From Nodosilinea sp. WJT8-NPBG4 (GTDB lineage Bacteria; Cyanobacteriota; Cyanobacteriia; Phormidesmidales; Phormidesmidaceae), in assembly GCA_019359285.1 (NCBI GenBank), contig JAHHHQ010000036.1, positions 62,001-126,000 on the forward strand: a stretch of 64,000 nucleotides of DNA, read 5' to 3'. The notes under the pieces were generated by a model. That model did not search any database. It saw only the letters and a program-made list of their open reading frames with translations, and was not told the origin of the DNA. Positions within the stretch are counted from its first letter, which is position 1, and every line of letters begins with the position of its first letter. Of this stretch, positions 19,164 to 42,048 are shown piece by piece. The position numbers and the translations under genes are program-made.

Positions 19164-21200
19164 CTACGTTACAGACTCAATGCGACCATTCTCTAAAAAC
19201 AGAATTTGATCGGCGCGATTGAGCACTGAGGGGCGATGGGAGACGACGAGGCAGGTGGGTGGATGGGTGGATGGGTGGGCGGGTGGATGAGTAGGCGGGT
19301 GGATGGGTAGGCAGGTGGATGGGTTTTGGGTATTAGGTGTTGGGTGCTGGGTATTGGGTTTTGCCTTACACCTTGTACCTTGCACCTGATGACGTTCAGC
19401 CTCCGCATCTTCTCTATTTCCAAACAACTGCTCCCACAGGAGTTGCTCGGTTTCGACATCGAGGGCGCTGGAGAGGTCATCGAAAACCATCAAGGCGGGC
19501 TGGCGTAGCAGCATGCGGGCGGCGGCGGCTCGTTGTTTTTGTCCACCAGAAAGGCGAAAGCCGCGAGTGCCGATCAGGGTTTCTAGTCCCTCCGGCATTT
19601 GGGCGAGATCGCGATCGAAGACGGCGGTGGCGATCGCTCGATCAAACTGTTCTGGGCCAACGGCATCTCCTAGCCCCAGCAGCAGATTCTCCCGTAGTGA
19701 GGCGCTGAAAAGTTGGGGAATCTGCGGTGTATAAGCGGCCCGAGGCGGCACCAAAAAATTTGCCGGGTCGAGAATCGGCTGACCATTCCAATACAGCGCG
19801 CCAGCCTGCTTGGGTAGCAGGCCCAACAGCACCCGCAGCAGGGTGGTTTTGCCCGCGCCCACCCGCCCGGTGATCACCGTCAAACTGCCCTGGGCGAGGG
19901 TAAAACTGATGTCGCTGATGCCGCCACCGCCTGGATAGCGGTAGGTCAACCCTTCAACCCGCAGCTCGTGAAGGGGTTCGGATGCAATAGCCGTCGCCAT
20001 CGACGGCAGCACAGGCTGTGAGCTAAGCAGGGGCTTGAGGTAGAGGGGGTGGGGGTGGGTGAGGGGGTGGATGGGTAGGCGGGTGGATGGGTCGGCGGGG
20101 GGATGGGTAGGCGGGTGGATGGGTAGGCGGGTAGGCGGGTTGGTAAATATCTGAGATTCGGTTATTTCACGGGTGCTGGTCTCGTCCACCCTCCCACCCT
20201 CCCACTCATCCACGCGCCCACCCTCCCACGCGCCCACCAACTTCCCCATGCGCTCAAAGGAAACTTCGCTCTGCTTAATGGTGGCGATAAAGCCGCCGAG
20301 GAAGGCGAGAAAGTAGGTGACAAACGATAAGTAATAGACAAACAGGGCAAAGTCGCCCACGGTGAGATCGCCTTGGGCACCGAGGCTTTGGGAAGCGACC
20401 AGCAAGATTAGCCCGGTGCCGATGCTGACGATATTCTCAAAGCCGGAGTTGAGCACAGCGGTGAAGACCTGGTCGCGCACCATCAGGTCGCGGCGGCGAT
20501 CGCACCTTTTCCGCAATTCCTCCAGCATTTGGGCCTCGGCTCCGGCCACCTTTACAGCCTGCACAGCGGTAAACAATTCGCCAATTAGCCCGGTGACTTG
20601 CTGGGTAGCCTGGCGGCTGGCGCGGCGGTAGCGTTTGAGGCGGTGTTCGGCCTGGTGGGCGAGGAGGGCGATCGCGCACAGCGGCAAAAACACCAGCAGC
20701 GTCATCGTCGGGTTGACGCTGATCAGCAGCGCCACCGACCCCACGGCAAACACTCCGGCAGCAAAGATCTCGTTGGTGCCCACCACCACATCCTCAATCT
20801 GCGCCGCATCGTCGCGAAAGTAGCTGAGAATTTCACCAGGGGAGGCATTTTGGCCATTGGCTCCACCCGTTGCCAGCTCGGCCCCAGGGCGCTTGAGCAG
20901 TTCATGCAGCAGGTTGTGTCGCACCAGACCACTGATCAAAAAGCGGTGCTGAGTTTTAGTGATCCGCCCGACAAAGATTGCCACCACCCGCGCCAGCCCC
21001 ACCGCCAGCAGTAGCCCAATCCATACCCAAGGCGAACTGCTAAAGCGAGCCTCTCCGGTGAGGGTGTCAAAAAATTCGCGAATGATCAGCCCCGGCACCG
21101 CTGGAAGGCCAAGGATGAATAGCCACAGCAGCGTATCGACCCAGTAGAGCCGCTGGGCGTAGCGGATGAGCTGCCAGAGGAGGTGGGTGATGGGGGGCAT
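19164..21200 (-). CDS. ABC exporter half-transporter (TMD+NBD) carrying two in-frame repeat-derived insertions
   Basis: Walker A GRVGAGKTT, LSGGQKQRAAAARMLL, DDLSSALD, H-loop VVSHR; insertions at about 20036-20246 (TMD-NBD linker) and 19242-19406 (inside NBD just before the H-loop strand). Confidence 0.9.
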   Translation of the reverse strand: MPPITHLLWQLIRYAQRLYWVDTLLWLFILGLPAVPGLIIREFFDTLTGEARFSSSPWVWIGLLLAVGLARVVAIFVGRITKTQHRFLISGLVRHNLLHELLKRPGAELATGGANGQNASPGEILSYFRDDAAQIEDVVVGTNEIFAAGVFAVGSVALLISVNPTMTLLVFLPLCAIALLAHQAEHRLKRYRRASRQATQQVTGLIGELFTAVQAVKVAGAEAQMLEELRKRCDRRRDLMVRDQVFTAVLNSGFENIVSIGTGLILLVASQSLGAQGDLTVGDFALFVYYLSFVTYFLAFLGGFIATIKQSEVSFERMGKLVGAWEGGRVDEWEGGRVDETSTREITESQIFTNPPTRLPIHPPTHPPADPSTRLPIHPLTHPHPLYLKPLLSSQPVLPSMATAIASEPLHELRVEGLTYRYPGGGGISDISFTLAQGSLTVITGRVGAGKTTLLRVLLGLLPKQAGALYWNGQPILDPANFLVPPRAAYTPQIPQLFSASLRENLLLGLGDAVGPEQFDRAIATAVFDRDLAQMPEGLETLIGTRGFRLSGGQKQRAAAARMLLRQPALMVFDDLSSALDVETEQLLWEQLFGNREDAEAERHQVQGTRCKAKPNTQHPTPNTQNPSTCLPIHPPTHPPAHPSTHPPTCLVVSHRPSVLNRADQILFLENGRIESVT

Positions 21201-24235: not shown

Positions 24236-24913
24236 ATGAATTCAGAACCTAATAGTGCAGAAACAGATTCGGCTCAAGTAGTCACAGAATCTCTAAGTCA
24301 GTCTGAGAAAAACATAGCAGCAACCCCAAGCTTTCCCAATCCACTTTCCGAAGCAGAAACAGATTCGGCTCAAGTAGTCACAGAATCTCTAAGTCAGTCT
24401 GAGAAAAACATAGCAGCAACCCCAAGCTTTCCCAATCCACTTTCCGAAGCAGAAACAGATTCGGCTCAAGTAGTCACAGAATCTCTAAGCCAGTCTGAGA
24501 AAAACATAGCAGCAACCCCGAGCTTTCCCAATCCACTTTCCGAAAAAGTACCGAATACTCGTCCCGGTTATTGGGTTAAAAATTTGATTGGAAATGTTGG
24601 GGAGCCATTATACTTTTTAGCGATCTCTCTTATGGGAGAAGAACTCGCCCTTCAAGTCTGGGAAGAAGTACGGGAGATGATTGCTTATGCCCTGATTCTT
24701 CAACTACCTGATTTAATCGGTCAGTTAATCCTTAAGCAACAGTTTTCTAGCTTTAATGTATGCCAAGCTGAGGATGCGCTTGATATTAATCGTTATGCCT
24801 GCTATACCATCGTTGGATCTGACTTTTTACTTTGGATAGCTATTGCTAGTCGAATTATAGGACGTTTCTTGGCTAGTCTATTGGGGATTACTAATAGATC
24901 AAGAGGGAGTTGA
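24236..24913 (+). CDS. Hypothetical membrane protein with three tandem 32-aa repeats
   Basis: (AETDSAQVVTESLSQSEKNIAATPSFPNPLSE)x3 followed by hydrophobic segments. Confidence 0.7.
   Translation: MNSEPNSAETDSAQVVTESLSQSEKNIAATPSFPNPLSEAETDSAQVVTESLSQSEKNIAATPSFPNPLSEAETDSAQVVTESLSQSEKNIAATPSFPNPLSEKVPNTRPGYWVKNLIGNVGEPLYFLAISLMGEELALQVWEEVREMIAYALILQLPDLIGQLILKQQFSSFNVCQAEDALDINRYACYTIVGSDFLLWIAIASRIIGRFLASLLGITNRSRGS
24257..24544. repeat. Near-perfect 96-bp coding tandem repeat x3
   Basis: Unit starts at 24257, 24353 and 24449; only a few substitutions in copy 3. Confidence 0.95.
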
Positions 24914-24917
24914 TATA

Positions 24918-25790
24918 ATGAATTTTCTTTCAAGGCGAAGTAGGCACAATAGAATTTTCAGTTTTCTTTCAAGGCGAAGTAGGCATAATAGAATTTTCAA
25001 TATAATTTACAAAAAGCTGTTTTCTGTAATTCATGATTTAATTCCAGGAATTATAGGAATTTTTTCTGTTCTGGTCATTACAGGTGGAAATCCGTCAGGA
25101 TTTACTATTGGTCTTCTATTCTTTGTGGGTACAGCATTTCTTGCTATTAGACGTGTAAACAACATAATTAGACAGCAACAAATTTTTCGATTAAATTATG
25201 TTAGTCAATATGATACAAGTAAGCAAATTGTAATCTCAGTATTAGAGGGCTGGAAACAGTTAGATGCAGATGCCCGCGCATGGCTTTTTAGTGTAGGTAA
25301 AAGTGAGCGAATCTTAAAAGGTGAGCATTTGATTTTTGAGGGAACGCCTATTACCTCACTTTACATTGTGCTGAAAGGAGCGTTAGAAGTTCGAATTAGT
25401 GCTTTACCCAATCGAAAGGTCGCTATGTTGCGACCCGGTGATGTAGTTGGAGAAATGTCTTTTGTGAAAGAAGGACATCCTCCTTCAGCTAGTGTCATAG
25501 CCTTAGAAGATTCATGCGTCTGGTCTATTCCTTGCTCCCAATTGCTGCAAAAACTAAAGAGAGATAAGATTTTTGCTGCTCGCTTCTATGAAGCACTTGC
25601 AGGTATTCTTGCAGGAAGGCTTTACATTACAACACTCATTCAACATAGCCTTGAAACGGGTTCTGAAGAAAGTGAAAAAATTCTAAGGAGCTTAGATAGT
25701 GTAGGAATTGTAAGCTTCTCACCAACAACTTCACCCGACCTAAGTCTGCTCAATATTCGCGACCGCCGTAAAGACTATACTGTAAGGTAA
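24918..25790 (+). CDS. Membrane-anchored cyclic-nucleotide-binding (cNMP/CRP-like) domain protein
   Basis: Two hydrophobic segments, then GEHLIFEGTPITSLYIVLKGALEVRISALPNRKVAMLRPGDVVGEMSFV (cNMP-binding fold); 39-bp tandem duplication at 24923-25000 in its 5' end. Confidence 0.85.
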   Translation: MNFLSRRSRHNRIFSFLSRRSRHNRIFNIIYKKLFSVIHDLIPGIIGIFSVLVITGGNPSGFTIGLLFFVGTAFLAIRRVNNIIRQQQIFRLNYVSQYDTSKQIVISVLEGWKQLDADARAWLFSVGKSERILKGEHLIFEGTPITSLYIVLKGALEVRISALPNRKVAMLRPGDVVGEMSFVKEGHPPSASVIALEDSCVWSIPCSQLLQKLKRDKIFAARFYEALAGILAGRLYITTLIQHSLETGSEESEKILRSLDSVGIVSFSPTTSPDLSLLNIRDRRKDYTVR

Positions 25791-28617: not shown

Positions 28618-29622
28618 CTACGATGGCTCCACAAGATATTTGAACAGGTCATCCAGAATGGCATTGGCTGCGATCGGGCCGCTGCCAATCCAGTAGCTGG
28701 GTACGGTGTAGACACGCCCAGCCTGCACCGCTTTGAGCTGTCGCCAGAGCGGGTCTTGTCGCAGCGTTTCTAGTTTTTGCTCGGCCGATGCCATCGCCTC
28801 AGGGGTGTTCTCACCCGTCCAGAGAAAAATGACATCGCCATCGGCCTGCCCCAGCAGCTCTCGGCTAATGCTGGTTTGAATCGGGTTGTCGAAAAGGTTC
28901 GCTGCCTCATCGGCTCCAATATCCTGAGCGGTCGGTCGGGCCAACCCCGCATCTTGCAACACAGTGCCCACAAACGAATCGCGCAGGTAAAGATTGATGG
29001 TGTCAGGATAAATTCGCACCACCGACACCTGAAGGTCGTTGAGGCGATCGCCCATCTGAGCCTTAAAGTCTGCTGTTCTCGCATCGTAATCGGCCATCGT
29101 CTGCTGCGCCGCATCCGTTTGCCCCAGAGCCGCCGCCATCTGCTGAAACAATGTTTTCCACTGACCGCTATGCTCAAAGGTAAACATAAGCGTTGGCGCA
29201 ATTTGAGTGGCCTGGGCATAGGCCGCCTGATTGTCGTTAAGCCCCACAATCAAATTGGGCTTGAGGGCCAGCACCTGCTCTAGATTGGGCTCTCCCGTCT
29301 GCCCGACGTTCTCGACCTGGGCCACTTGCTCCGCCATGTGCTCCATCAAGCCGCCCATAGCTGTGGCAATGGGGGAGAGACCCGATGCGATCGCATACTC
29401 AAACGTCACCCCATCTAGCGTCACCAACCGCTCATAGGTCTTCGGCACACAGGTCGTTCCAGCTGCATGTTCAACCTCAGTGCAATCCACCGCAGCCGAT
29501 TGATCAACGGTTGATTCTCCCCCCTGACAAGCAACCACTAATCCCAGGGTCACTAGCGCCAGGGCAAGGTTGATTGCCCACTGTCTTAGAACTTGTAAGC
29601 TCAAATGTCTAACCTCACTCAT
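28618..29622 (-). CDS. Iron-siderophore ABC transporter substrate-binding lipoprotein (FecB-like)
   Basis: Lipobox-like LVVACQ; YERLVTLDGVTFEYAIASGLSPIATAMGG...LEQVLALKPNLIVG. Confidence 0.9.
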   Translation of the reverse strand: MSEVRHLSLQVLRQWAINLALALVTLGLVVACQGGESTVDQSAAVDCTEVEHAAGTTCVPKTYERLVTLDGVTFEYAIASGLSPIATAMGGLMEHMAEQVAQVENVGQTGEPNLEQVLALKPNLIVGLNDNQAAYAQATQIAPTLMFTFEHSGQWKTLFQQMAAALGQTDAAQQTMADYDARTADFKAQMGDRLNDLQVSVVRIYPDTINLYLRDSFVGTVLQDAGLARPTAQDIGADEAANLFDNPIQTSISRELLGQADGDVIFLWTGENTPEAMASAEQKLETLRQDPLWRQLKAVQAGRVYTVPSYWIGSGPIAANAILDDLFKYLVEPS

Positions 29623-29700
29623 TTATCTTGCGATCGCTTATTCACTCAGGTTCGTCCCAATTTTGTCGGCCCACCCTGCAGGAAGGAAGCTGCACCTAAA

Positions 29701-29765
29701 TTCCTCTCTCTGAGGAAGAGGGACGTTGAAAGTCCGGTTCCCCTTCTCCCCAAGGAAGAAGGGGA
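29701..29765. repeat. Purine/pyrimidine palindromic dispersed repeat (CTCTCTCTGAGGAAGAGGG...CCCCTTCTCCCCAAGGAAGAAGGGG)
   Basis: Related sequences at 2571-2610 and 36069-36157. Confidence 0.75.
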
Positions 29766-29832
29766 TGTAGAGCTATGCTCTTCCCGCAAGTTGGGTCAAC
29801 TTGCAGAAGTAGGATGCACCCTATTTACTGTC

Positions 29833-32319
29833 CTAAAATTCCACCCCCACCCTAGCTGAAACCGACAGCGGTGCTCCGGGAGTTACACCCAAAAACTGAT
29901 CCGACGAGGTGAAATAACGGCTATTGAATAGGTTTTCGACATTGAGCTGGGCTCGCCAGTTGTCGCGGCGATAAAACAGCGCTGCATCGGTGCGAAAATA
30001 GCTGGGCAGCGTAAAACTATTGTCAGAATTACCCGCTCGCTGACTGACGTAATACAATCCCAGGCCAAAGCCTAGCCCCTCCAAACTTCCCTCTTGTAGC
30101 TCGTAGGTGCTCCACAGGCTAAATTGGTTGTCGGGCACATTGGCCAGACTATTGCCCACCGGAATGGAGTTGTCTTTGCTGACAAAGGCATCTAGCAAGG
30201 TGTAGTTGGCGGTGAGGTTCCACCCCGGCAAAACTTCGCCGCCTAAGCCCAGTTCAAAGCCTCGGCTCGCCACCTCGCCCGTCTGCACTGAAAACAGACG
30301 ATTGTTGGGGTCAGGAGTTCGCACATTCCGGCGGCGAATGTCGAACAGGGCCGCAGTAAAGCTTAAGCTGTCGGTAATATCGCCCTTAACCCCCACCTCA
30401 AACTGTCGACCCCGCTCGGGGTCAAAGGTGGATTCGTCAGCGTTGCGGCTGACCCCAAAGGAAGGCTGAAATGAGGTGGTGTACGACGCATAGAGCGACA
30501 CCGGCTCAATCGGTTGATAAACAATGCCGACCCGAGGCGAAAAAGCGCTGTCTGACTGGCTAAACTCTTCGCGGGGCTGGCCGATATCTCGGGTCGTGCG
30601 AAACTGGTCGGCGGTGTCGTACCGCACCCCGGCCAGCAGCTTTAGATTCGGCAAAATATCGATCTGATCTTGCAGATAAATGCCCAAAGTTCTAATCGTG
30701 TCGTCCCTAAAGAACTCGGGTTCGATGGCGTAGGGAATGCCCGTGTAGACCGGGTTAAAAATATTGATGGAGTTGTAGGAATTGCTGAACTGAAACTCGG
30801 GTTGCTCCAGCGTATTGCGATATTCAACGCCAAACAATACCTGGTGAGGAATGGAGCCGGTGTTAAAACGCCCAACAGCTTCTGCATTGGTGTAAAAGCG
30901 CTGGTAGGTGCCACCTGCAAAGTAAGCCAAGCGCCCCAGCTCGCCAGTCGTTTCATCCAGCGAATCGAATAGGGGGGCGTAGCGGCGCGGCGCATATCGT
31001 TGGTATCGAAGGGTGTGGCGCAGGTCAAGATTCTCGTTGACCTCGTGGTTGAGGCGATAACCCAGGTTGAACTGCTCTTGGGAAAATTCGCCAAAATCTT
31101 CGCCCAAAAAGCGATCGCGCGGCAGATCGATAATGCCATTGGCACCCACCACCAAACCTTCGTCGATAGTTTCGCGATCGCTCGTATACTGCCCATACAC
31201 ATCCAGCGAGGTGCTGGGGCTAATATCCCAGGTGATGATCGGCGAAATCAGCAGCCTGCGGCCATCCACCAAATTGCGAAAACTGTTGAAATTTTCGTAG
31301 GACACATTGAGTCGGTAGCGAACAGCGCTGTCCTCTGTGATGGGTCCCGATAGGTCAACCGCTCCGTCGTAGCTGCCAAAGCTATCGACACCCGCAGAGA
31401 TGTCATAAAACGGCTCACTCAGCGGGCGCTTTGGTACCAGGTTAATAATGCCACCCGGCTCACCCTGGCCAAACAGCACCGAGGCAGGCCCGCGCAGCAC
31501 CTCGACCCGCTCAATGTCGTTGGTGCTCAACCCCCCCAACGAGAATGTCTCGACCCCATCGCGAAAAACGCCGCCCCGATTCTCAAAACCGCGAATTAGA
31601 AAGCCTGGGCCAAACGCGCTCAGGCCCCGACCACCGTTGTCGGCCACCGAACCCGCTGTCTCTAGGGTATTGCCCAACTCCCGCGCATCGCGGTCTTCAA
31701 TCACCGCCTGGGGGATCACCTGAATCGACTGGGGAATGTCGCGCAGGGGCGTATCGGTGCGGGTTGCGGTGCTGGAGTCACTGGGCGCATAACCTTCATC
31801 GCCCTCACCCGTCACCCCAATGCGAATGACTTCTTCCTCTCCAGAGGCCAAGCTTAGCCCTGGTGTAACACCCAGCACCAGCCCGGCCGCCCCAGAGCTC
31901 ACATTCACCGCTGGTGGCCCATCGCTGCCGGTAATCGACACCCTTACTCGGTTATCCCCCAGGCTGGTCACACTCACCAGGGCAATGCCCTCGGCAGGGC
32001 CAAACTGCTCAAAACTCTCGCCCTCCGGCAGCGCCAGCACCGCATTGGGAATGTCTGCCACCAGCGCATTGCCGACTACCGAGGTGGTAGGCTCTCCCAG
32101 CGCCTCATTGGCATCTAGCACCAGGCGAATTCCCTGACCGTCGGGTTCCACCCGCACGCCGGTAATCTGCGTTGCCCCCTGGGCCAGATTGAGATCTGCC
32201 GCCTGCCCGCTGGGTGCCACCTCCACTAACGGCAGCGCCGTTTCAGCCTGAGCCGCCATTGGCACCAGCGCCAGCCATCCCGCCAACCACACCAACCGCT
32301 GCAATCGAACTCCCATCAC
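29833..32319 (-). CDS. TonB-dependent siderophore receptor with N-terminal AMIN domain
   Basis: RTDTPLRDIPQSIQVIPQAVIEDRDARELGNTLETAGSV...RIEVLRGPASVLFGQGEPGGIINLVPKRP. Confidence 0.93.
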   Translation of the reverse strand: MMGVRLQRLVWLAGWLALVPMAAQAETALPLVEVAPSGQAADLNLAQGATQITGVRVEPDGQGIRLVLDANEALGEPTTSVVGNALVADIPNAVLALPEGESFEQFGPAEGIALVSVTSLGDNRVRVSITGSDGPPAVNVSSGAAGLVLGVTPGLSLASGEEEVIRIGVTGEGDEGYAPSDSSTATRTDTPLRDIPQSIQVIPQAVIEDRDARELGNTLETAGSVADNGGRGLSAFGPGFLIRGFENRGGVFRDGVETFSLGGLSTNDIERVEVLRGPASVLFGQGEPGGIINLVPKRPLSEPFYDISAGVDSFGSYDGAVDLSGPITEDSAVRYRLNVSYENFNSFRNLVDGRRLLISPIITWDISPSTSLDVYGQYTSDRETIDEGLVVGANGIIDLPRDRFLGEDFGEFSQEQFNLGYRLNHEVNENLDLRHTLRYQRYAPRRYAPLFDSLDETTGELGRLAYFAGGTYQRFYTNAEAVGRFNTGSIPHQVLFGVEYRNTLEQPEFQFSNSYNSINIFNPVYTGIPYAIEPEFFRDDTIRTLGIYLQDQIDILPNLKLLAGVRYDTADQFRTTRDIGQPREEFSQSDSAFSPRVGIVYQPIEPVSLYASYTTSFQPSFGVSRNADESTFDPERGRQFEVGVKGDITDSLSFTAALFDIRRRNVRTPDPNNRLFSVQTGEVASRGFELGLGGEVLPGWNLTANYTLLDAFVSKDNSIPVGNSLANVPDNQFSLWSTYELQEGSLEGLGFGLGLYYVSQRAGNSDNSFTLPSYFRTDAALFYRRDNWRAQLNVENLFNSRYFTSSDQFLGVTPGAPLSVSARVGVEF

Positions 32320-32477
32320 ACCACCTGTAAATCGTTGAGGACAATGCCCTAGCTATCCATAGCTTTGAGACAATCAGGAATACTTCTCAACAAGATACAG
32401 GTCAGTGGGAACCACTAAAGCGAAGGATGATCCCTAGACGGAGTTTTTGCGATCAGATTTGGGAGTTTCTGGGAGCA

Positions 32478-32552
32478 AGTGGGAGAGTAGATGAGTGGGC
32501 AGGTGGATGGGTAGATGGGTGGATGGGTAGGCGGGTGGATGAGTGGATGGGA
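32478..32552. repeat. G-rich arm of the dispersed repeat family
   Basis: GAGAGTAGATGAGTGGGCAGGTGGATGGGTAGATGGGTGGATGGGTAGGCGGGTGGATGAGTGGATGGG; inverted partner at 32800-32872. Confidence 0.88.
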
Positions 32553-32799
32553 TACGATTCCGGGCGTTGCTTAACGCAAGTATGATTTGCCCCACCAGCC
32601 CCCATTTTTGGGGGGAGCCAGAGTCTCAAAGTCCCCCAGAATTCGGGGATTTAGGGGGCCAGGCAGAGTCTAAAGGTTTTGCCGGTTCATTCCTCGATTC
32701 AGCAATGCCCGATTCCGCTTTATGCTCTGCACCACACACCTACACGCCTAATAAATATAGGGAGATTGTCTTTCTACCCTTCACTCGTCGCACACTTCA

Positions 32800-32872
32800 C
32801 CAACCCATCCACCCATCTACCCATCTACTCATCCACCCGCCTACCCGCCTACCCACCCACCCCCTACGCCCT
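32800..32872. repeat. C-rich arm of the dispersed repeat family, reaching the stop codon of the AraC gene
   Basis: CCAACCCATCCACCCATCTACCCATCTACTCATCCACCCGCCTACCCGCCTACCCACCCACCCCCTACG. Confidence 0.88.
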
Positions 32873-33796
32873 CCTCCCCCTCACATACACCCCCGGATTC
32901 ACGCCGTACTTGCGGCGAAAGGCGGCGGCGAAGTGTCCCCGGCTGGCAAAGCCTACGGCCTCGGCGGCGGCGGTGACGCTGAGGTCGCCCGATTCGAGTA
33001 GCTGGCGCGATCGCTCCATGCGGTGCTCGTGCAAATAGCCAAATACCGTAGTGCCAAAAACCTGACGAAAGCCCACCTTGAGCTTGTGGTCGTTGATGCC
33101 TACCGCCCGCGCTAGCTCAATCAGCGTGGGGGGATGGGCAATCTGACGGCACAGCAGCTTGCTGGCATAGTGAATGCGTTCTACATCGTCGGCTTTGAGG
33201 GTCGGTGGGCTGAAGCTGTCAGACATTGATTTCAGGTCTTCAATCAAGAGCGCCAGCAGCTCCCACACTTTGCTTTCCAGATAAAGCCGTTGGGTTAACC
33301 CTTGAAATGGACAGTGCAAAATCGCCTGCACCGCCATTTGCATAGCCGCCGTGGGGGTGCCAGAGCGCTCCAGGTAGCGTTGATCCGCAGGGCGCAACAG
33401 GTCTGGGAGATCGTCGCAAGCCTCCCCAATCCACTGGTGGAAGGCGTAGGGATCGATATGGACGTTGATCCCTACAATCCGTCGATTACCGGGGACCCGC
33501 CAGGCCTCCGCCGGGGCCAGACCACTGCCAAAAAAGACGTAGCGCTGACTACTTTTGCCGCCGCTCTGAACCTGCTCAAAAATAAATTCCAGTGGATGTT
33601 CGCGATCGCAGTGTCTGATCTCCAGATCATCGTGCAGACAGATCTCTTCCAGACAGAGTTCGACGCCCTCGCGCAGGGCCACATAGCGCTGTTGCCCCTG
33701 CCCGAGAGCAGCAGGATAAGCCGTTACTTCGCCGTCTGTTGCGGTAGCCTCGTCGAGCCAGTTCGCGTAGTCAGCTTGGGAAAGGGTAATGGTCAT
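32864..33796 (-). CDS. AraC/PchR-type transcriptional regulator
   Basis: LARAVGINDHKLKVGFRQVFGTTVFGYLHEHRMERSRQLLESGDLSVTAAAEAVGFASRGHFAAAFRRKYGVNPGVY; likely start MTITLSQADYANW. Confidence 0.92.
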   Translation of the reverse strand: MTITLSQADYANWLDEATATDGEVTAYPAALGQGQQRYVALREGVELCLEEICLHDDLEIRHCDREHPLEFIFEQVQSGGKSSQRYVFFGSGLAPAEAWRVPGNRRIVGINVHIDPYAFHQWIGEACDDLPDLLRPADQRYLERSGTPTAAMQMAVQAILHCPFQGLTQRLYLESKVWELLALLIEDLKSMSDSFSPPTLKADDVERIHYASKLLCRQIAHPPTLIELARAVGINDHKLKVGFRQVFGTTVFGYLHEHRMERSRQLLESGDLSVTAAAEAVGFASRGHFAAAFRRKYGVNPGVYVRGRRA

Positions 33797-34011
33797 AGCG
33801 ACGGGCGCAGCAGCGCTATAGCAATAAAACGGGAGTGATAAAACGGGGTTGCCCCAACGCCAGCCGACAATTCCTTGCAGACAGGCCTTTGGAGCAACCC
33901 CTAGCAATTACATCCAAAGCATTAGATGTGAGAGAGGATAGAAAAAAGCTTAGCTTAATTGGTATTAATTCTCAATAGCTTAAGTTTGGGTTTTGCCTTG
34001 GGCCTCAGCCC

Positions 34012-34975
34012 CTACCTTGGGCAGAGAGCCAAAGTCTTCACCTGGTAAGGGGTGACCGCAGACAATGCCTTACTGGCACAGGAGCCTTTGAGCTGAGCGG
34101 TGCCGGTTGAGTCGGCAACCACCTCAGCTCGGTGGGTTTGCTGCTCGCCCCCTGAGGTTTTGTAGGATAGCTCTACTCGGTTGAAGGTTTCGTCTTCGTC
34201 GTGCTCTAGCACTTGAGCAGACACCGAGTAGGTCAGCCAGTCCCAACCGTGGGTGAGCAATAGCTGTTTTTCGAGCATCTGGGCGGCCCAGGGCAACAGG
34301 CCCCAGCCCCGATAAATGGTGTCTAGGGTGTGGATATCGCCGCTGTGGGTGAGCACTGACCGCAAAGACTCGGCATCTAGGTAGCCGTAGTAGCGGGCGG
34401 AGGGAAAGTCAATGGCAGTAGGGGCCATGCGGTGGCCGCCGATGTGGCTAGCCTGCCAGATGCGGATGTTTATGCAGGCCCAGTTCGGCAACGAGTTTGC
34501 GGGCCTGGTGGTAGAGGGGTGCGCCAAAGCGGGAGCAGCAGCGATCGCGGCTACCGTGGGTGCAGACCAAAATATCGCGACTGGGCTCATCTACCGGGAT
34601 CGCATTGACGGGTTCCCCCATCACCACCTGTTGCACCAAGGGTGCAACCTCTTCAGTGCTTGCCAGATGAAATTCTTGCTTTTCATAACTCGTGGCAAAG
34701 CCGGAGGGTTTGCGAAACACCAATACGCGAGTGCAGTTCTCCAGCTGGAGTTGCTCGTTGTGGATCAGTAGAAAGCGGGTTTGGTAGCGATCGTAGTCGT
34801 CGTAGAGCGCTTTGCCGAGCGATCGCAGGTTTTCGGGAATGCCTTTAGAGTCGAGGTCAGCGGGTTCCCAGGGAGGCGGGCAGGCGATCGCTACGTAGAG
34901 GTGGTGCTCAGAGGCGGTACCGACAATATCAATGCCAGACTGACGAGCCTGCTCAGCACAGAAGAGTTGTTCCAT
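34012..34975 (-). pseudogene. Sucrase/ferredoxin-like (thioredoxin-fold [2Fe-2S]) protein split by a frameshift into two ORFs
   Basis: 34448-34975 ends ...DILVCTHGSRDRCCSRFGAPLYHQARKLVAELGLHKH|PHLAG*, while the other frame (34012-34590) continues IRIWQASHIGGHRMAPTAIDFPSARYYGYLD..., together matching one family. Confidence 0.8.
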
Positions 34976-34976
34976 G

Positions 34977-36008
34977 TTAGTTAAGAGGGGTCAAAAAACT
35001 TAGATAGCTCTCCAAAATAGCCGCCGCTGCTACAGGGCCTCGCATGGTGGATAAACGCGCATCTAAGAAAAAGACTCGCTCGGCTTGAGACGCTGGCATT
35101 TGCCTTAACACAGGAACGCTGTTCCACTCTTGCTGTATTTTTTCCCATCCCTGGGCATCACCTTTGTCAGCATCATTCCAAGCAACGACAATAGTAATAT
35201 CAGATTCTAGCTGCGGCAAGATTTCAAGCGAAATTGTAGGGTTGTCAGAAAGAACTGATTTTGTGTCTACAAGCTGAAAGTTTAGTTGCTCAATCAGTTC
35301 TGAAAACACGGTATCGTTGTAAGGATAAATCGCCTGAGATAAGCTTCCAGAACTGATCAGCAATACCCGAGGATATTTGCTTGCAGCTGAGGCTAACTGA
35401 GCGCGGGCAGCTGAGACTTTGGCATCATAGTCAGCCTTGATTTGCTGTAACTGCTTTGGTTTCTCTAAGGTTTTGCTGACAATCTCAATACTGTGCTGCC
35501 AACCGTCCTTGGTATCGTCAACCAACACCGTCGGCGCAATTTTAGACAATAAATTATACTTGCCTTGGGTACCCTGCCAGCTCTCACCTAAAATCAAATC
35601 TGGCTGCAATTGAGCAATCGCCTCTAGAGAAGGGCTGTGGCGATCGCCTAAATTAACCGGCTGACCGTTTAATTGACTTCCCAAATAAGGAATTTGTTGC
35701 TTGGGGTTGTCGAATTTAGGCCGTTGCAACATATCTTTGGTCACATCGGCCGCAGCATATCCCGCTGGCTCTACGCCTAGGGAAAGCATCATATCTAGAA
35801 TGTAGGGACTGAGGGCAACGATGGTAAGAGGCTGCCCGCAAACCTCCGTCTGCCCAGCATCATGGGCGATCGTTCGACAATCTGGGGAAACGCTTGAAGA
35901 ACTTTGAGATGGGTTATTTGACGGACGATAGCTACAGCCCCAGCTCAATAGCAGAGTTAGACAAAATAGCAAAAAAGGCTTGAGAATCCGATAACTAGCG
36001 ATCATCAA
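34977..36008 (-). CDS. Iron-siderophore ABC transporter substrate-binding lipoprotein (FecB-like)
   Basis: LLSWGCSY lipobox; LTIVALSPYILDMMLSLGVEPAGYAAADV...LEAIAQLQPDLILGESW. Confidence 0.88.
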   Translation of the reverse strand: MMIASYRILKPFLLFCLTLLLSWGCSYRPSNNPSQSSSSVSPDCRTIAHDAGQTEVCGQPLTIVALSPYILDMMLSLGVEPAGYAAADVTKDMLQRPKFDNPKQQIPYLGSQLNGQPVNLGDRHSPSLEAIAQLQPDLILGESWQGTQGKYNLLSKIAPTVLVDDTKDGWQHSIEIVSKTLEKPKQLQQIKADYDAKVSAARAQLASAASKYPRVLLISSGSLSQAIYPYNDTVFSELIEQLNFQLVDTKSVLSDNPTISLEILPQLESDITIVVAWNDADKGDAQGWEKIQQEWNSVPVLRQMPASQAERVFFLDARLSTMRGPVAAAAILESYLSFLTPLN

Positions 36009-36068
36009 TTTAGTTGACTTACCAGGTAAATCTATAGGAAAAGCTTAGGGGCCATCCTAGGTTTGTAG

Positions 36069-36157
36069 CCCTCTCCCTAAATCCCTCTCCCTGAGGGAGA
36101 GGGACGAAGCCTGGCTCCCCTTCTCCCTAAGGGAGAAGGGGTGGGGGGGTGAGGGAG
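36069..36157. repeat. Palindromic dispersed repeat (CCCTCTCCCTGAGGGAGAGGG ... CCCCTTCTCCCTAAGGGAGAAGGGG)
   Basis: Direct reading; related copies at 2571-2610 and 29701-29765. Confidence 0.85.
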
Positions 36158-36236
36158 GCGAACTGGCAAAATTGGTATGCACCCAGAACATTTCCCCAAG
36201 GTTTACAGTTATCTCCGCCTCAGCACTATTACCTCC

Positions 36237-38903
36237 CTAGAACGTTGTTCGATAGCTGAGACTCATCGTTCGGCCCTGGCCCGCTCGGTTGTCGCTGTCA
36301 GAGAAGGGGGCGAAGTACTGAGAATATACTGGGTAATACTGGGTATTCAACAGATTTTGAATGCCCAGCGCTAGCTCTCCATTCCCAAGGCGGACGCCGC
36401 TCAAGAGATCAAGGGTGATATAGCTATTGATGGGGGCATCATCGGCACCAGCATTGAAGCCGCGATCGCGGTCACCAGAAAACAGCAGTTGCAAGCGATT
36501 TCGCCAGCCCGGCAGGGTTTCGTTCTCCACGTAGGCAGTTAGCTTAAACGGCGGAATGATAATGCTGTTAAGCGCCGTAAAATCGCCATCTTCATCAGCA
36601 TCATCTCCACCCTCTAACCAGGCGGCCGTGCCCCCGAGGCTCCAGCGATCGCTGGGTTGCCAATCAAGGGCACCTTCTAGCCCGTAGACCCGTTGGGGCG
36701 ATCGCACGGTTTGCAGGGGGCCATCATCCACTACGGCAAACCTCGTGCCCAAACTGGAGTAGTTATAAAACGCGGCTACAGACGCCTGCACGGTGTTCCA
36801 GTTGCCCCGCAGGCCGATTTCGTAGTTATCGACCTTTTGGGGCTGCGTCAAATCAATGCCGCTTTCAACGGCAAAGCCGGCAGGGGCAAAGCGCAGCACC
36901 CGGCCAATATCCGGTAGCGAAAAGCCCTGGGAAAAGCTGGCAAAGGCCGTCAAGCTATCCACAACTTCGTAGGCTAAGCCCAGATTAAAGACCACATCAT
37001 CCGCAGTCAGCGTGCCCCCTTCAACGCTATTGCCGTCATAGGTGGTGTAGTCGTCGGTATCAATATTGAGATTGACATACCGTGCCCCGCCGCTCAGGGC
37101 GAGGCGATCGACAACATCCCACTGCAGCTGAGCAAAAATGCCCAGGTCGTTCAAGCGGTAGGGAGGGACAAAATCAACCTCGCCAATCTTGCGAAAAACC
37201 AGTCCGCCGCTGGCGTCAAACTCACCTGGGTCAAACAGGTTAAACCGCTGAGAACTGTCTTCCCGCACATAATCGAGCCCCCAGAGCAAGCTCAGGGTGT
37301 CTTCAGGATTAAACGACGTATTGACCTGAAGCCGGCCCCCCCACTGCTGAGTACTTCCGGGGGATTGGGAGATAATGCCAAAAAACTCCCGGAGATCGGT
37401 GGGCAGGCCGCCAACAAACTCATAGTTGCGGAAAAAGACCTGCCCCGAAACCTCACTGTTGAGCAAGTCATCATGGAAGTACTGGAGGGTGAGGTTCGTC
37501 GTTTCTAGAGAGGCCTCATTGGGGGCATCAATAATTTGAGTGCCTGCCGGTAGTTCAATGGCTTGGGCTTTCTGTACCCCCTCAATATCGTTCACCTCAG
37601 GGTCACTGATATAGGAGACGTTCTGGATTTGGCTGAAGTGGTTAAAGGTGAAACTCAACCGCTGCTCTGGGCTGAGTTCCCCCCCTAGCCGAATCAGCAG
37701 GTTCACCTCGTCCGTCTCGGCGTCGGTTAAGTCGCTGGGGATGCGATCGCCCTCCGCATCGTAATACACCCCGCGCGAGGTGTAAGACAGACTGCCCAAA
37801 ATGCTGGCCGTCTCCGTCGCCGCTGATACTGAGTAAAGCGCGTTATAACCAAACCCATCCCCAGTCAGAAAGGCCTCGTTGAAGGCGGCACTGCCACCGA
37901 TGTCGATCGTCTGGCTCACGGGACTCGCATCCGGTTGCCGCGTGATGATGTTGATTGAACCGCCTGTGGCCTGCCCGCCATAGATTGCGTTGGGGCCACG
38001 GAGCACTTCAATTCGTTCAACCGAGCGCGGATCAATCGTCGTCAGCGCGGCGGGGACAGAGCCCAGGTTGCTGTTTTGGGGAATGCCGTCAATCAACACC
38101 GAAATATCGCGTCCCCGCAGGGTTTGCCCAAAGGTACTGGTGCGGCTGGTGGGGGCACTAAAGCCAGGGACGAGCTGAGACAAGATATCCCCCAGGTCCT
38201 CGCTGAACCGAGTTTGTTGCTCAATATCTTCCCGGGTAATCACCGTGACGGAGCGAGGAACGTTCTGTAATTCTTCTTCGGTTCGAGTCGCGGTCACCAC
38301 CAGCTGAATGGCCTCCTCGGTCGCTTCGGCTTCGGTTGCCAACCCGGGGGTGACTGCCAAAACTAAGCCCTGGGCCGCCGAACTGACCGCCACGCTGGGC
38401 GGGGCATCGTTGCCGGTAATGGAAACTCGCACCTGATTGTCTGGCAGACCCGTAACGCTAACAAAAGCAATACCTGCCGTTAAGCTGGCCTGTTGAAACT
38501 CACCCCCATCGGGCAGAGCCAGCACCGCATTGGGGATATCGATAATCAAGGCGTTGCCGAGCGATCGCGTGGTGGGTGCCGACAGCTCACCCGCCGCCGT
38601 TTCCAGCACCACCTGCAAGCTCGCCTCGGTAGACTCTACCCGCACCCCGGTAATTTGCACTGTGGCCTGGGCGATCTGGGTCATCCACTCGTCTACGGTG
38701 GTGACAGGGTGGATGGGTAGCGGGGTGGATGGAAGCGTGGGTTGTTCGGACTCATCCACTCGCCCACTCATCCACCCATCCACAGTCTCATCATTTGCCT
38801 GGGCCGCCAGCGGCTGAGCCAGGGCTGCGATCGCCCCCATCACGCCAACCCACACGCTCCATCCCATCCGCTGCTGAGTCATATCCCTCACACCACCGTT
38901 CAA
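36237..38903 (-). CDS. TonB-dependent receptor with AMIN domain; repeat-derived segment after the signal peptide
   Basis: NVPRSVTVITREDIEQQTRFSEDLGDILSQLVPGF...RIEVLRGPNAIYGGQATGGSINIITRQP; N-terminal VDGWMSGRVDESEQPTLPSTPLPIHPVTTVDEW encoded by repeat DNA at 38705-38785. Confidence 0.92.
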   Translation of the reverse strand: MNGGVRDMTQQRMGWSVWVGVMGAIAALAQPLAAQANDETVDGWMSGRVDESEQPTLPSTPLPIHPVTTVDEWMTQIAQATVQITGVRVESTEASLQVVLETAAGELSAPTTRSLGNALIIDIPNAVLALPDGGEFQQASLTAGIAFVSVTGLPDNQVRVSITGNDAPPSVAVSSAAQGLVLAVTPGLATEAEATEEAIQLVVTATRTEEELQNVPRSVTVITREDIEQQTRFSEDLGDILSQLVPGFSAPTSRTSTFGQTLRGRDISVLIDGIPQNSNLGSVPAALTTIDPRSVERIEVLRGPNAIYGGQATGGSINIITRQPDASPVSQTIDIGGSAAFNEAFLTGDGFGYNALYSVSAATETASILGSLSYTSRGVYYDAEGDRIPSDLTDAETDEVNLLIRLGGELSPEQRLSFTFNHFSQIQNVSYISDPEVNDIEGVQKAQAIELPAGTQIIDAPNEASLETTNLTLQYFHDDLLNSEVSGQVFFRNYEFVGGLPTDLREFFGIISQSPGSTQQWGGRLQVNTSFNPEDTLSLLWGLDYVREDSSQRFNLFDPGEFDASGGLVFRKIGEVDFVPPYRLNDLGIFAQLQWDVVDRLALSGGARYVNLNIDTDDYTTYDGNSVEGGTLTADDVVFNLGLAYEVVDSLTAFASFSQGFSLPDIGRVLRFAPAGFAVESGIDLTQPQKVDNYEIGLRGNWNTVQASVAAFYNYSSLGTRFAVVDDGPLQTVRSPQRVYGLEGALDWQPSDRWSLGGTAAWLEGGDDADEDGDFTALNSIIIPPFKLTAYVENETLPGWRNRLQLLFSGDRDRGFNAGADDAPINSYITLDLLSGVRLGNGELALGIQNLLNTQYYPVYSQYFAPFSDSDNRAGQGRTMSLSYRTTF

Positions 38904-38999
38904 GTATTTAACAAGCTAGATGCGAATAGTTTTCATCTAGGTATAGGAACTTTAGGGCGAAAGGTGCGATCGCGTCTGCCTCGGCACGGAACAATTCAG

Positions 39000-40103
39000 T
39001 CACAGCACGGAATTTTTGAAGGCTTTGGGGCTGACCCCAAACTCGCGCTTGAAGGCGGCGGCGAAGTGCCCCGCGTGGCTGTAGCCCACCTGATAGGTGA
39101 CCTCTGCCACGCTCATCTCGGTGTCTTGCAACAGCTGTCGCGCTTTAATCAGGCGCTGCTGTCGCAGATAGCCAAACACCGTCGTACCCAACACTTGGCG
39201 AAAGCCACGCTTTAGGGTGCAGTCGTTGAGACCTACGGCCCGGGCCAGTTCCAGCAGTGACAGGGGATCGTCCAGGCGTTGGGCAACCAGATCTCTGGCC
39301 TGATAAATGCGGTCAACATCTGAGGGCTTCAGCCGCTGGGCCAGCCTAGAGGGGCCAGCCTCTAGCCACTGAGCCGTTTGCAGGGCAATCAGCTCCAACG
39401 CTTTTCCCTCTAAATAGACCTGTTGAATGGAGCCAGTGTAGGGGCAGTTGAGAATTTGTTCGAGCACCAGCTGAACCGCTGGGGAAATTGATCCCACAGG
39501 CTGGTACCAGATGTCTCCATCGGCGGTGATCGCGGCCTGTAGTTCTGCCGGAATCAGCTCTAATTGTTCAGCACTAAAGGCCAAGGAGCCAGCTTGAGTG
39601 ATCAAGTGCAGATCGATTTTCAACACTCGCCGCTGCCCAGACCAAGCTTGAAAAAGACTTTGGGTGCGAGTTTCGTTGAATTCAAGAAAATTATTCGGGC
39701 TAGTTGGCTCTGCTGAGTGCTCATCGTCTGGGACAATGTGCAGGTTAAAGCCAAATTCTAGGGTTCGCCCAGGTGCTTCCGGCAATTTTTCTTCAACCAA
39801 GGTGTCTTGCAACCAGTAGTCGCGGATCAGCAAGTTCAGTCCACGGCTGAGGTTGAGCGATCGCTTATAGCCTCGGCTGGTCGACTGGGGGGCTTGAATC
39901 ACCAGCTCGTAGTTGCCCGACAGTGACGGGTGAGCCGTAGCTGATAAGGATGCCGACTGTTCTTTTTCTGAAAGGAGAATGGTCATGGGAGTGAAAGCAG
40001 CGTGCCAAAGGAATTCAGGAACCGTAGCCAGCAAATAAGACTTATTCTCATTTATTGATTTGATTCTGGCAAGCGGCCCAATCACCCGGTTGGGGCCATT
40101 CAA
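39000..40103 (-). CDS. AraC/PchR-type transcriptional regulator
   Basis: LARAVGLNDCTLKRGFRQVLGTTVFGYLRQQRLIKARQLLQDTEMSVAEVTYQVGYSHAGHFAAAFKREFGVSPKAF. Confidence 0.92.
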   Translation of the reverse strand: MNGPNRVIGPLARIKSINENKSYLLATVPEFLWHAAFTPMTILLSEKEQSASLSATAHPSLSGNYELVIQAPQSTSRGYKRSLNLSRGLNLLIRDYWLQDTLVEEKLPEAPGRTLEFGFNLHIVPDDEHSAEPTSPNNFLEFNETRTQSLFQAWSGQRRVLKIDLHLITQAGSLAFSAEQLELIPAELQAAITADGDIWYQPVGSISPAVQLVLEQILNCPYTGSIQQVYLEGKALELIALQTAQWLEAGPSRLAQRLKPSDVDRIYQARDLVAQRLDDPLSLLELARAVGLNDCTLKRGFRQVLGTTVFGYLRQQRLIKARQLLQDTEMSVAEVTYQVGYSHAGHFAAAFKREFGVSPKAFKNSVL

Positions 40104-40158
40104 GCCAGTCCGCTATCCTTGCTGAACTGGGGATGCAGCATTGGCAACAGTTTCAAGA

Positions 40159-42048
40159 TTAATCGGGCATCGCTCCGACCTTAAGCAAGCGCGAAAACTG
40201 GGAATTGGGGTTGGTCAAGAGGGTAGCGCGATCGCCGTACTCCACCGCCTGCCCCTGCTCCAAAATCAAAATCTGGTCAGCCCGCTCCACGGTCTCTAGC
40301 CGGTGGGCGATGATAACTCCTGTACGGTTCACCAACAGCCGATCCACCGCCCGCTCGATCAGCTGCTCCGTCAGCGGATCGAGCCGCGACGAGGCTTCAT
40401 CTAGCACCACCAGCCCCGGATCTTTGAGAAACACCCGCGCAAAGGCCAGCAGCTGTGCTTGCCCCGCCGACAGCCCGCCGCTGTCGGCTCCTAGTTCTGT
40501 ATCCAGCCCTTGCGGTAGTGCTTCCAGCCAGGGCATCAAGCCTAGCTCATCCAGGGTTTGCAAAATGGCGCGATCGCCAATGTGCCCATTAAAAAACGTC
40601 AGATTATTGCGCACCGAAGTCTGAAACAACTGCACATCCTGAGTCACAAACCCCACATGGTGCGGCAACTCCCGCAGCGATACCTGGGCGATATCTACTC
40701 CCCCCAGGCGGATTTGCCCCCGCTGGATGTCGTACAGCCGCAGCAGCAACCGTGCCAGAGTGCTCTTGCCGCTGCCCGTGCGGCCTAGCAGGCCGAGGGT
40801 TTGACCGGCGGGGAGGTGGAGGGTGAGGGATTGGAGGGTAGGTGGGTGGGTGGGTAGGCGGGTGGTTGGGTAGGCGGGTGGATGGGTCGGTGGGTCGGTG
40901 GGTGGTTGGGATTTGTTTATCTCATCAGTACTAGTTTCGTCTATGCTCCCACGCTCCCAGTCGCCTACTTCTTGGTAACCAAACCAAACCTCTTCAAGCT
41001 CCACCGATAGTGCGCCTCTGGGTAAAACTCCTTGACCACCGGGGCTCACCTGAGCCTGGTACCCCAATAGATCCTGAATACGCTGGATGCTGGCTTGGGC
41101 CTGTTGGAGCTGTTCTAGCTCTTCGCGGATGCGCTCGATGGGGTCTTGCAGCAGGGTGGCGTAGTAAAACAGCAGGTAGACGGTGCCGATGGTGATGGCG
41201 GATTGGCTCCAGAGGTAGGCACCAACGGCTAGGGCGATCGCATTCCCTACCGTAAACAGCCCCACGGTGCTGCCCCACAGCAAAGTGCTGGTAAAGCGAG
41301 CCTGATGAAAGGCTGCCAGCCACCGCCGCAGAATTTTGTAAAACCGATCCATCACGTAGCCGACGGCCCCGTTGGCGCGGATGTCCTCCAGCCCGCTGAG
41401 GTGCTCAGCCACAAAGCCGTAGAATTCGGCGCTGATCTGGCGGTAGGTACCCCAGGGGCCAACGGCCAGGTTTTGCAGGCTACCCAAAACGCCAAAGGCC
41501 ATCAGGGCAAACAGGCTCAGGCTCACTCCGGCGCGCCAGTCTTCGCGCCACACCATAAGTAAGACGCCGACCACCAGCAGGCCATTGCCTACCACCTGCA
41601 ACATAAACTGCGAGAAAAACCGGGAGAGAGCATCCACATCGCCATCGACCCGCTCCACCAGTTCGCCGGGGGTGTGGGCTTTGTGAAAGGCCAGATCAAG
41701 GCCCATTGCGTGGCGGGCCAGATCAAGGCGCAGGGTATTCGTAGCGCGCCAGGCAATGGTTTCGCTGAAGTAAGTGGTGGCGATCGCTAGCCCCTGCTGC
41801 AAAATTGCGATCGCCATAAACGCCCCCGCCGCCAGCAGCAGCGATCGCTGCTGCCCACCCGCGATCGCAGTATCGATGAAGTAGCGCAAAATCTGAGGGT
41901 TTAGCAGCTGTAAGCCAATCCCTCCCAGCAGGGCGATCGCCAACCACCCAAACCGCCCTCGCTGCGGTTTCAGATACGTCGCCAAAATCGTTTGATACCC
42001 CTGTGCTGTTGCTCCCATGGCGAGCCTACCTCGCAAAAACCAGCCCAC
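40159..42048 (-). CDS. ABC exporter half-transporter (TMD+NBD) with in-frame repeat-derived insertion after the A-loop
   Basis: Walker A GRTGSGKST, LSAGQAQLLAFARVFL, VVLDEASSRLD, IIAHRLETVERAD; insertion VGDWERGSIDETSTDEINKSQPPTDPPTHPPAYPTTRLPTHPPT at about 40836-40968. Confidence 0.92.
   Translation of the reverse strand: MGWFLRGRLAMGATAQGYQTILATYLKPQRGRFGWLAIALLGGIGLQLLNPQILRYFIDTAIAGGQQRSLLLAAGAFMAIAILQQGLAIATTYFSETIAWRATNTLRLDLARHAMGLDLAFHKAHTPGELVERVDGDVDALSRFFSQFMLQVVGNGLLVVGVLLMVWREDWRAGVSLSLFALMAFGVLGSLQNLAVGPWGTYRQISAEFYGFVAEHLSGLEDIRANGAVGYVMDRFYKILRRWLAAFHQARFTSTLLWGSTVGLFTVGNAIALAVGAYLWSQSAITIGTVYLLFYYATLLQDPIERIREELEQLQQAQASIQRIQDLLGYQAQVSPGGQGVLPRGALSVELEEVWFGYQEVGDWERGSIDETSTDEINKSQPPTDPPTHPPAYPTTRLPTHPPTLQSLTLHLPAGQTLGLLGRTGSGKSTLARLLLRLYDIQRGQIRLGGVDIAQVSLRELPHHVGFVTQDVQLFQTSVRNNLTFFNGHIGDRAILQTLDELGLMPWLEALPQGLDTELGADSGGLSAGQAQLLAFARVFLKDPGLVVLDEASSRLDPLTEQLIERAVDRLLVNRTGVIIAHRLETVERADQILILEQGQAVEYGDRATLLTNPNSQFSRLLKVGAMPD

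Follow-up and report, generated by a model that had tools for sequence, protein, structure and literature searches.

Rickettsia palindromic elements (RPEs) are small palindromes that lie in-frame in unrelated genes as well as between genes, each of them open to translation and encoding a conserved peptide (PMC10969869). Filamentous cyanobacteria carry short tandem repeats (STRRs) whose units are usually 7 bp long and have hairpin potential (PMC2670836), and in Nostoc the P6b stem of the trnL (UAA) intron is built from degenerate heptanucleotides, the whole hairpin having been repeatedly swapped for one of another repeat class (PMC4476775, PMC3488679). GTAG/CGTC-tagged REPs are palindromes that are sometimes genic, and the recB genes of two Xanthomonas species have different REPs at nearly the same position (PMC3733652). 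Here we analysed a 64,000-nt stretch of DNA from Nodosilinea sp. WJT8-NPBG4 (the window), in which two ABC exporter genes carry in-frame palindromic inserts with a related peptide core (Table 1), together with the orthologous loci of related genomes (genome labels run up to G046, G000 being the window's own).

By behaviour, RPEs are the closest described system, since they too combine in-frame palindromes, genic and intergenic copies, and an open frame; here, palindromes were found in-frame in the two exporters and in an unrelated sucrase/ferredoxin-like gene of G026. The likeness is one of behaviour, kinship in sequence not being expected, and the host phylum differs: RPEs span ~150 bp and have a family-wide conserved sequence, whereas the present elements have degenerate octamer or heptamer arms and mostly different spacers, and their families swap at one site. 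By make-up, the nearest counterparts are STRRs, with their short units and hairpin potential. Tandem units of ~7-8 bp are likewise dispersed in these genomes (octamer arrays here, heptamer arrays in orthologues), and most inserts can form hairpins, those of G034, G029 and G012 being the exceptions; the units here are mostly 8 bp and lie in frame within coding sequence, whereas the published STRR examples compared are intergenic (PMC2670836). For replacement at a fixed site the best parallel is Nostoc P6b; that loop is intron RNA, whereas the present one belongs to a protein, and its translation requires an open frame. REPs are 20-40 bp long and have both a defined tag and a family sequence; in the elements described here GTAG is present inside GGGTAGGC units, with no defined GTAG tag end, and, as to a RAYT that might move them, the genome has weak Y1_Tnp matches. 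The elements do not fit the definition of MITEs, their arms being degenerate tandem arrays of variable length rather than defined terminal inverted repeats, and one near-empty-site comparison (G013 versus G026) showed no visible target site duplication or transposase signature.

Table 1. Exporters, inserts and a related intergenic site, in window coordinates.
Feature	Position	Strand	Details
Exporter 1, host of two inserts	19164..21200	-	second ABC exporter; Pfam ABC_membrane and ABC_tran, translation
Composite insert of exporter 1	19255..19400	-	before the H-loop strand, near the C-terminus; heptamer hairpin (GGTACAA / AATACCC type) adjoining an octamer C-rich array
Palindromic octamer insert of exporter 1, DETSTREITESQ spacer	20033..20240 (core 20151-20186)	-	membrane/ATPase linker; fold z = -4.8 against dinucleotide shuffles
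Intergenic octamer site, 3' end of AraC-type gene	32479..32880	.	G-rich array 32479-32550, C-rich array 32798-32880
Exporter 2, insert host	40159..42048	-	ABC exporter, membrane and ATPase domains; Pfam ABC_membrane and ABC_tran, translation
In-frame palindromic insert of exporter 2	40836..40968	-	loop directly after the A-loop (VWFGY)
C-rich octamer arm of exporter-2 insert	40836..40905	-	units CYACYCNY
Spacer/core of exporter-2 insert	40906..40941	-	encodes DETSTDEINKSQ
Short G-rich arm of exporter-2 insert	40942..40968	-	GACTGGGAGCGTGGGAGCATA

The evidence makes it likely that the exporter-2 insert is a palindromic short-tandem-repeat hairpin lodged in a tolerant exporter loop, its spacer copied locally and held under moderate constraint until the element is replaced. 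Translations confirmed the initial annotation in placing a related peptide directly after VWFGYQE in exporter 2, at a site other than the one used in exporter 1: the exporter-2 insert reads VGDWERGSIDETSTDEINKSQPPTDPPTHPPAYPTTRLPTHPP, and the exporter-1 peptide, ...GGRVDETSTREITESQIFTNPPTRLP..., sits in the linker that joins the membrane and ATPase domains. Beyond that annotation, the shared core proved to be the spacer of a palindrome with degenerate octamer-array arms, and exporter 1 proved to carry a second, composite insert, which in orthologues is variable or minimal. On the coding strand, the layout runs from a G-rich octamer array through a spacer of ~40 nt, which holds the core, to a C-rich octamer array with units fitting CYACYCNY; because the two arms are complementary, the insert is a palindrome. 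Most inserts fold clearly below shuffled sequence (MFE z from -1.0 to -8.7; -2.9 over a 138-nt segment for exporter 2, relative to dinucleotide shuffles), and the sites in G034 (+2.6), G029 (+0.2) and G012 (-0.7) are poorly or not palindromic. The sequence flanking the inserts on either side aligns with solved ABC transporters in the PDB, confirming the fold and the insert positions, a comparison that is uninformative on the inserts themselves; an AlphaFold model of exporter 2, built with 14 orthologues, was unusable (mean pLDDT 46.9). Given the known ABC fold and solved homologues that do not have these stretches, the insert loops probably lie on the protein surface.

Exporter 2 belongs to an iron-siderophore uptake neighbourhood (window 28618-42048) with two TonB receptors bearing an AMIN domain, two periplasmic binding proteins and two AraC-type regulators, and the exporter is also present in the close relatives Nodosilinea sp. 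FACHB-131, Phormidium tenue FACHB-1052, Leptolyngbya sp. FACHB-60 and Nodosilinea LEGE strains. The draft assembly of Nodosilinea sp. LEGE 06152 breaks inside the exporter-2 insert (L224/L227), as expected if repeats hinder assembly. The window has further repeats. A dispersed 35-bp repeat (AAGTCCGGTTCCCCTTCTCCC...) at 29730-29764 and 36107-36141, its copies 86% identical, is unlike the octamer arrays; three near-identical 96-bp tandem repeats (24257-24544) lie in the ORF at 24236-24913, and a 39-bp tandem duplication (24923-25000) lies at the start of the ORF that follows, both of which look like recent duplications.

The cores of the two exporters, 12 codons each, differ at 12 nucleotides, 10 of them transitions, distributed 3/2/7 over the codon positions, so that the differences fall mainly at third positions, as the initial annotation had described. 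The shared peptide it had noted is borne out by eight identical residues of 12; a null that scatters as many transitions and as many transversions as observed, with no stop allowed, reaches at least eight with p=0.009. Searched against the whole 5.9-Mb genome, the peptide match between the exporters has E=3.7e-6, and no third confident copy of the peptide core was found there. Whenever a genome was found to have both exporters, the two are linked. The inserts are not unrelated insertions: both are copies of a single element.

When 27 genomes of the genus were searched with a sequence model of the spacer, 18 confident copies were recovered, and in 64 genomes of the family no match of comparable score fell outside the genus. 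Weak matches of ~33 nt (E 0.01-0.1), found in nearly every genome, were set aside because they seem to represent a single conserved gene. The DETST spacer occurs in the genus at only three sites, all linked: exporter 1 (five genomes), exporter 2 (four) and, in G016, an intergenic copy (L098) ~1.2 kb from exporter 2. That intergenic site corresponds to the AraC-adjacent site of Table 1; in G016 the DETST spacer sits there within a compact hairpin, and the window copy has a different, longer middle. G026 carries eight copies of a variant spacer (TAEIEKS) that equals the DETST spacer in length and encodes VDEAETAEIEKS. Its genic copies lie in exporter 2, at both exporter-1 sites and in the sucrase/ferredoxin-like gene 9 kb further, and its intergenic copies at C2:216252, 216896, 559438 and 735279, the last without the C arm; six of the eight fall within 27 kb. 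In the sucrase/ferredoxin-like orthologue of G013, only two to three G-rich units stand where G026 has the full hairpin. Within the window, a sucrase/ferredoxin-like gene (34012-34975, minus strand) is apparently frameshifted near 34460-34490, through sequencing error or as a pseudogene, and appears as two overlapping ORFs (34448-34975 and 34012-34590), of which the latter matches PF06999 in its C-terminal part alone. Wherever the core or its G026 variant is genic, at four sites in three genes, it is read in one frame and one orientation.

The same loops hold unrelated repeats in sister species. At the exporter-2 site, octamer hairpins with the DETST spacer occupy four genomes (the window's genome, G018, G004 and G016), octamer hairpins with other spacers G008, G011 and G026, AAGGTTT/AAACCTT heptamer hairpins G020, G023 and G013 (doubled in G013), and a GAAGAGGT repeat G012; G034, a more distant relative, has a composite repeat, and orthologue comparison showed no insert of such kind in the distant relatives G029 and G046. 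The exporter-1 site holds the octamer-DETST element in five genomes, a GAGTTTT/AAAACTC hairpin in three, the TAEIEKS variant in one and a minimal octamer hairpin in one. Gene trees, built from the rest of each gene with the insert excluded, require at least eight changes of repeat family at the exporter-2 site and at least four at the exporter-1 site. At both sites almost all orthologues have some repeat insert, in most cases a hairpin, with the reading frame open in every case. Because unrelated peptides stand at one site in sister species, the DETST peptide is not a conserved part of the protein; to judge from the aligned orthologues, what they have in common is the loop or linker, not the peptide. 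The GAGTTTT insert of G013 resembles those of G004 and G016, from which the gene tree separates it, and recombination between strains may therefore account for some of the swaps.

A CarB-like gene, named from its sequence (L190, G000:C50:44226-44525, and orthologues), shows similar turnover. Its loop is short and without a repeat in G015, G023 and G002; most of the genus has an octamer C-array there, G024 and G013 have a GC hairpin, and G025 has a GGAGGCGG repeat. The CarB octamer array is thus conserved across most of the genus, and the DETST core is kept in exporter 1 across ~13% flank divergence, indicating that inserts are not always short-lived. In-frame octamer C-rich arrays were also seen in other large ORFs (G000:C66:20689-20721, G000:C34:206173-206226, G000:C36:43316-43747), which comprise a MutS2-like and a polyketide-synthase-like ORF, both named by sequence motifs, and a 1299-aa ORF with two arrays. 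Together with the turnover in CarB, the arrays of the MutS2-like and polyketide-synthase-like ORFs indicate that in-frame repeat inserts in tolerant loops are general in these genomes. Octamer arrays occur at many places in the window's genome, as counted over the 791 kb surveyed, reversed sequence being invalid as a control for these counts because reversed octamers fit the pattern too; one pattern match in C50 (L012) was rejected as a chance match within a gene. Comparable octamer hairpins whose spacers differ from the core occur in other parts of the genome, mainly between genes. Where arrays fall in large ORFs, the strand that is read is the C-rich one, and its units are stop-free in all frames; the G-rich strand has a TAG in one frame wherever the unit is GGGTAGGC.

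The initial annotation had suggested that the inserted peptide itself may be under selection. In its full form, with the peptide kept for a function in the exporters (for instance as a regulatory or docking segment), we consider this reading unlikely. Among orthologues, core dN/dS (Nei-Gojobori, resting on 11 codons) was not near 1, at 0.22 in exporter 1 and 0.23 in exporter 2, with 0.13 and 0.09 in the flanks (membrane and ATPase domains). Parsimony changes by codon position numbered 9/7/18 in the DETST family (p=0.017), 6/6/10 in the G026 family (p=0.12) and 20/16/30 over all 16 copies (p=0.04), most third-position changes falling on one internal branch that separates exporter 1 from exporter 2 plus the intergenic copy. 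The retention of eight residues between paralogous copies despite saturated synonymous divergence also favours selection on the peptide, as does the constant frame. However, the paralogous genic copies of G026 are near neutral (0.79), and the same estimator yields 0.46 for its intergenic copies, so that in these short, transition-rich data the estimate falls below 1 even without coding constraint; relative to this baseline the 0.22 of the core is only modestly lower, and the case for selection on the peptide is genuine but of modest strength. The intergenic copies that the annotation had proposed to inspect (L098 of G016 and the four G026 variants) likewise keep the core open between genes, and openness is therefore no evidence of selection. 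The peptide is dispensable: in both exporters, sister species have an unrelated peptide in its place. Selection on the peptide is thus supported in part, in that the core is under moderate constraint among orthologues, yet it is replaceable. Most simply, the pattern is read as that of a linker which, once inserted, came under ordinary coding constraint.

Selection might instead act on tolerance rather than on exporter function, the spacer of a selfish coding element keeping one harmless open frame at every site, an idea already put forward for RPEs. We hold this only as a tentative alternative: constant length, almost no indels, the single frame and orientation of the genic copies and the openness of all intergenic ones fit it, and since further open frames exist on the reverse strand of the DETST core, the use of one frame at four sites is mildly unexpected. 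Yet three of those four sites lie within the two linked exporters, so that the insertions may not be independent, and stops in the forward frames other than the used one explain much of the frame constancy. The corollary, that protein-level selection shapes a cyanobacterial repeat element as a translatable selfish hairpin, with repeat families in competition for shared protein loops, is similarly speculative, if conceivable. An account with no mobile element at all, in which slippage expanded Pro/Thr/His-rich linkers and the likeness of the cores arose by ectopic gene conversion confined to the two exporters, draws on the commonness and degeneracy of octamer arrays, for which slippage is expected, and on the linkage of the exporters wherever both are found. 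It leaves unexplained the complementary arms around a spacer, the intergenic copies of that spacer and the replacement by other palindromic families, and we judge it quite improbable.

Under the preferred reading, that of a locally copied hairpin in a tolerant loop, a palindromic element in-frame would be translated as an extra hydrophilic, proline-rich linker, probably leaving exporter function unaffected. The DETST core would be the spacer of one element subfamily, copied among neighbouring hairpins in exporter 1, exporter 2 and the nearby intergenic site; the arms of neighbouring elements may provide the homology, with the spacer copied by gene conversion or by template switching at hairpins. 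Local clustering and the G026 copy that lacks a C arm fit copying via repeat arms. An initial mobile step could have preceded such spread, and the presence of unrelated families at one loop would call for an additional mobile step or for exchange between strains. Once genic, an element would come under ordinary moderate coding constraint until replaced by another hairpin, often of another repeat family.

In a partial literature search, no earlier account emerged of repeat families turning over within protein loops in this genus, and what appears new relative to that literature is that unrelated short-repeat families swap at one protein loop between sister species, in the exporters and in CarB. 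DETST is the middle of one repeat, not a fixed functional motif, which carries a caution: a peptide common to two proteins, with synonymous differences in the DNA, need not be a functional motif. These loci represent a cyanobacterial counterpart of in-frame palindromic inserts, and they offer a natural series of tolerated protein insertions as well as a route to study the origin and exchange of hairpin repeats inside genes.
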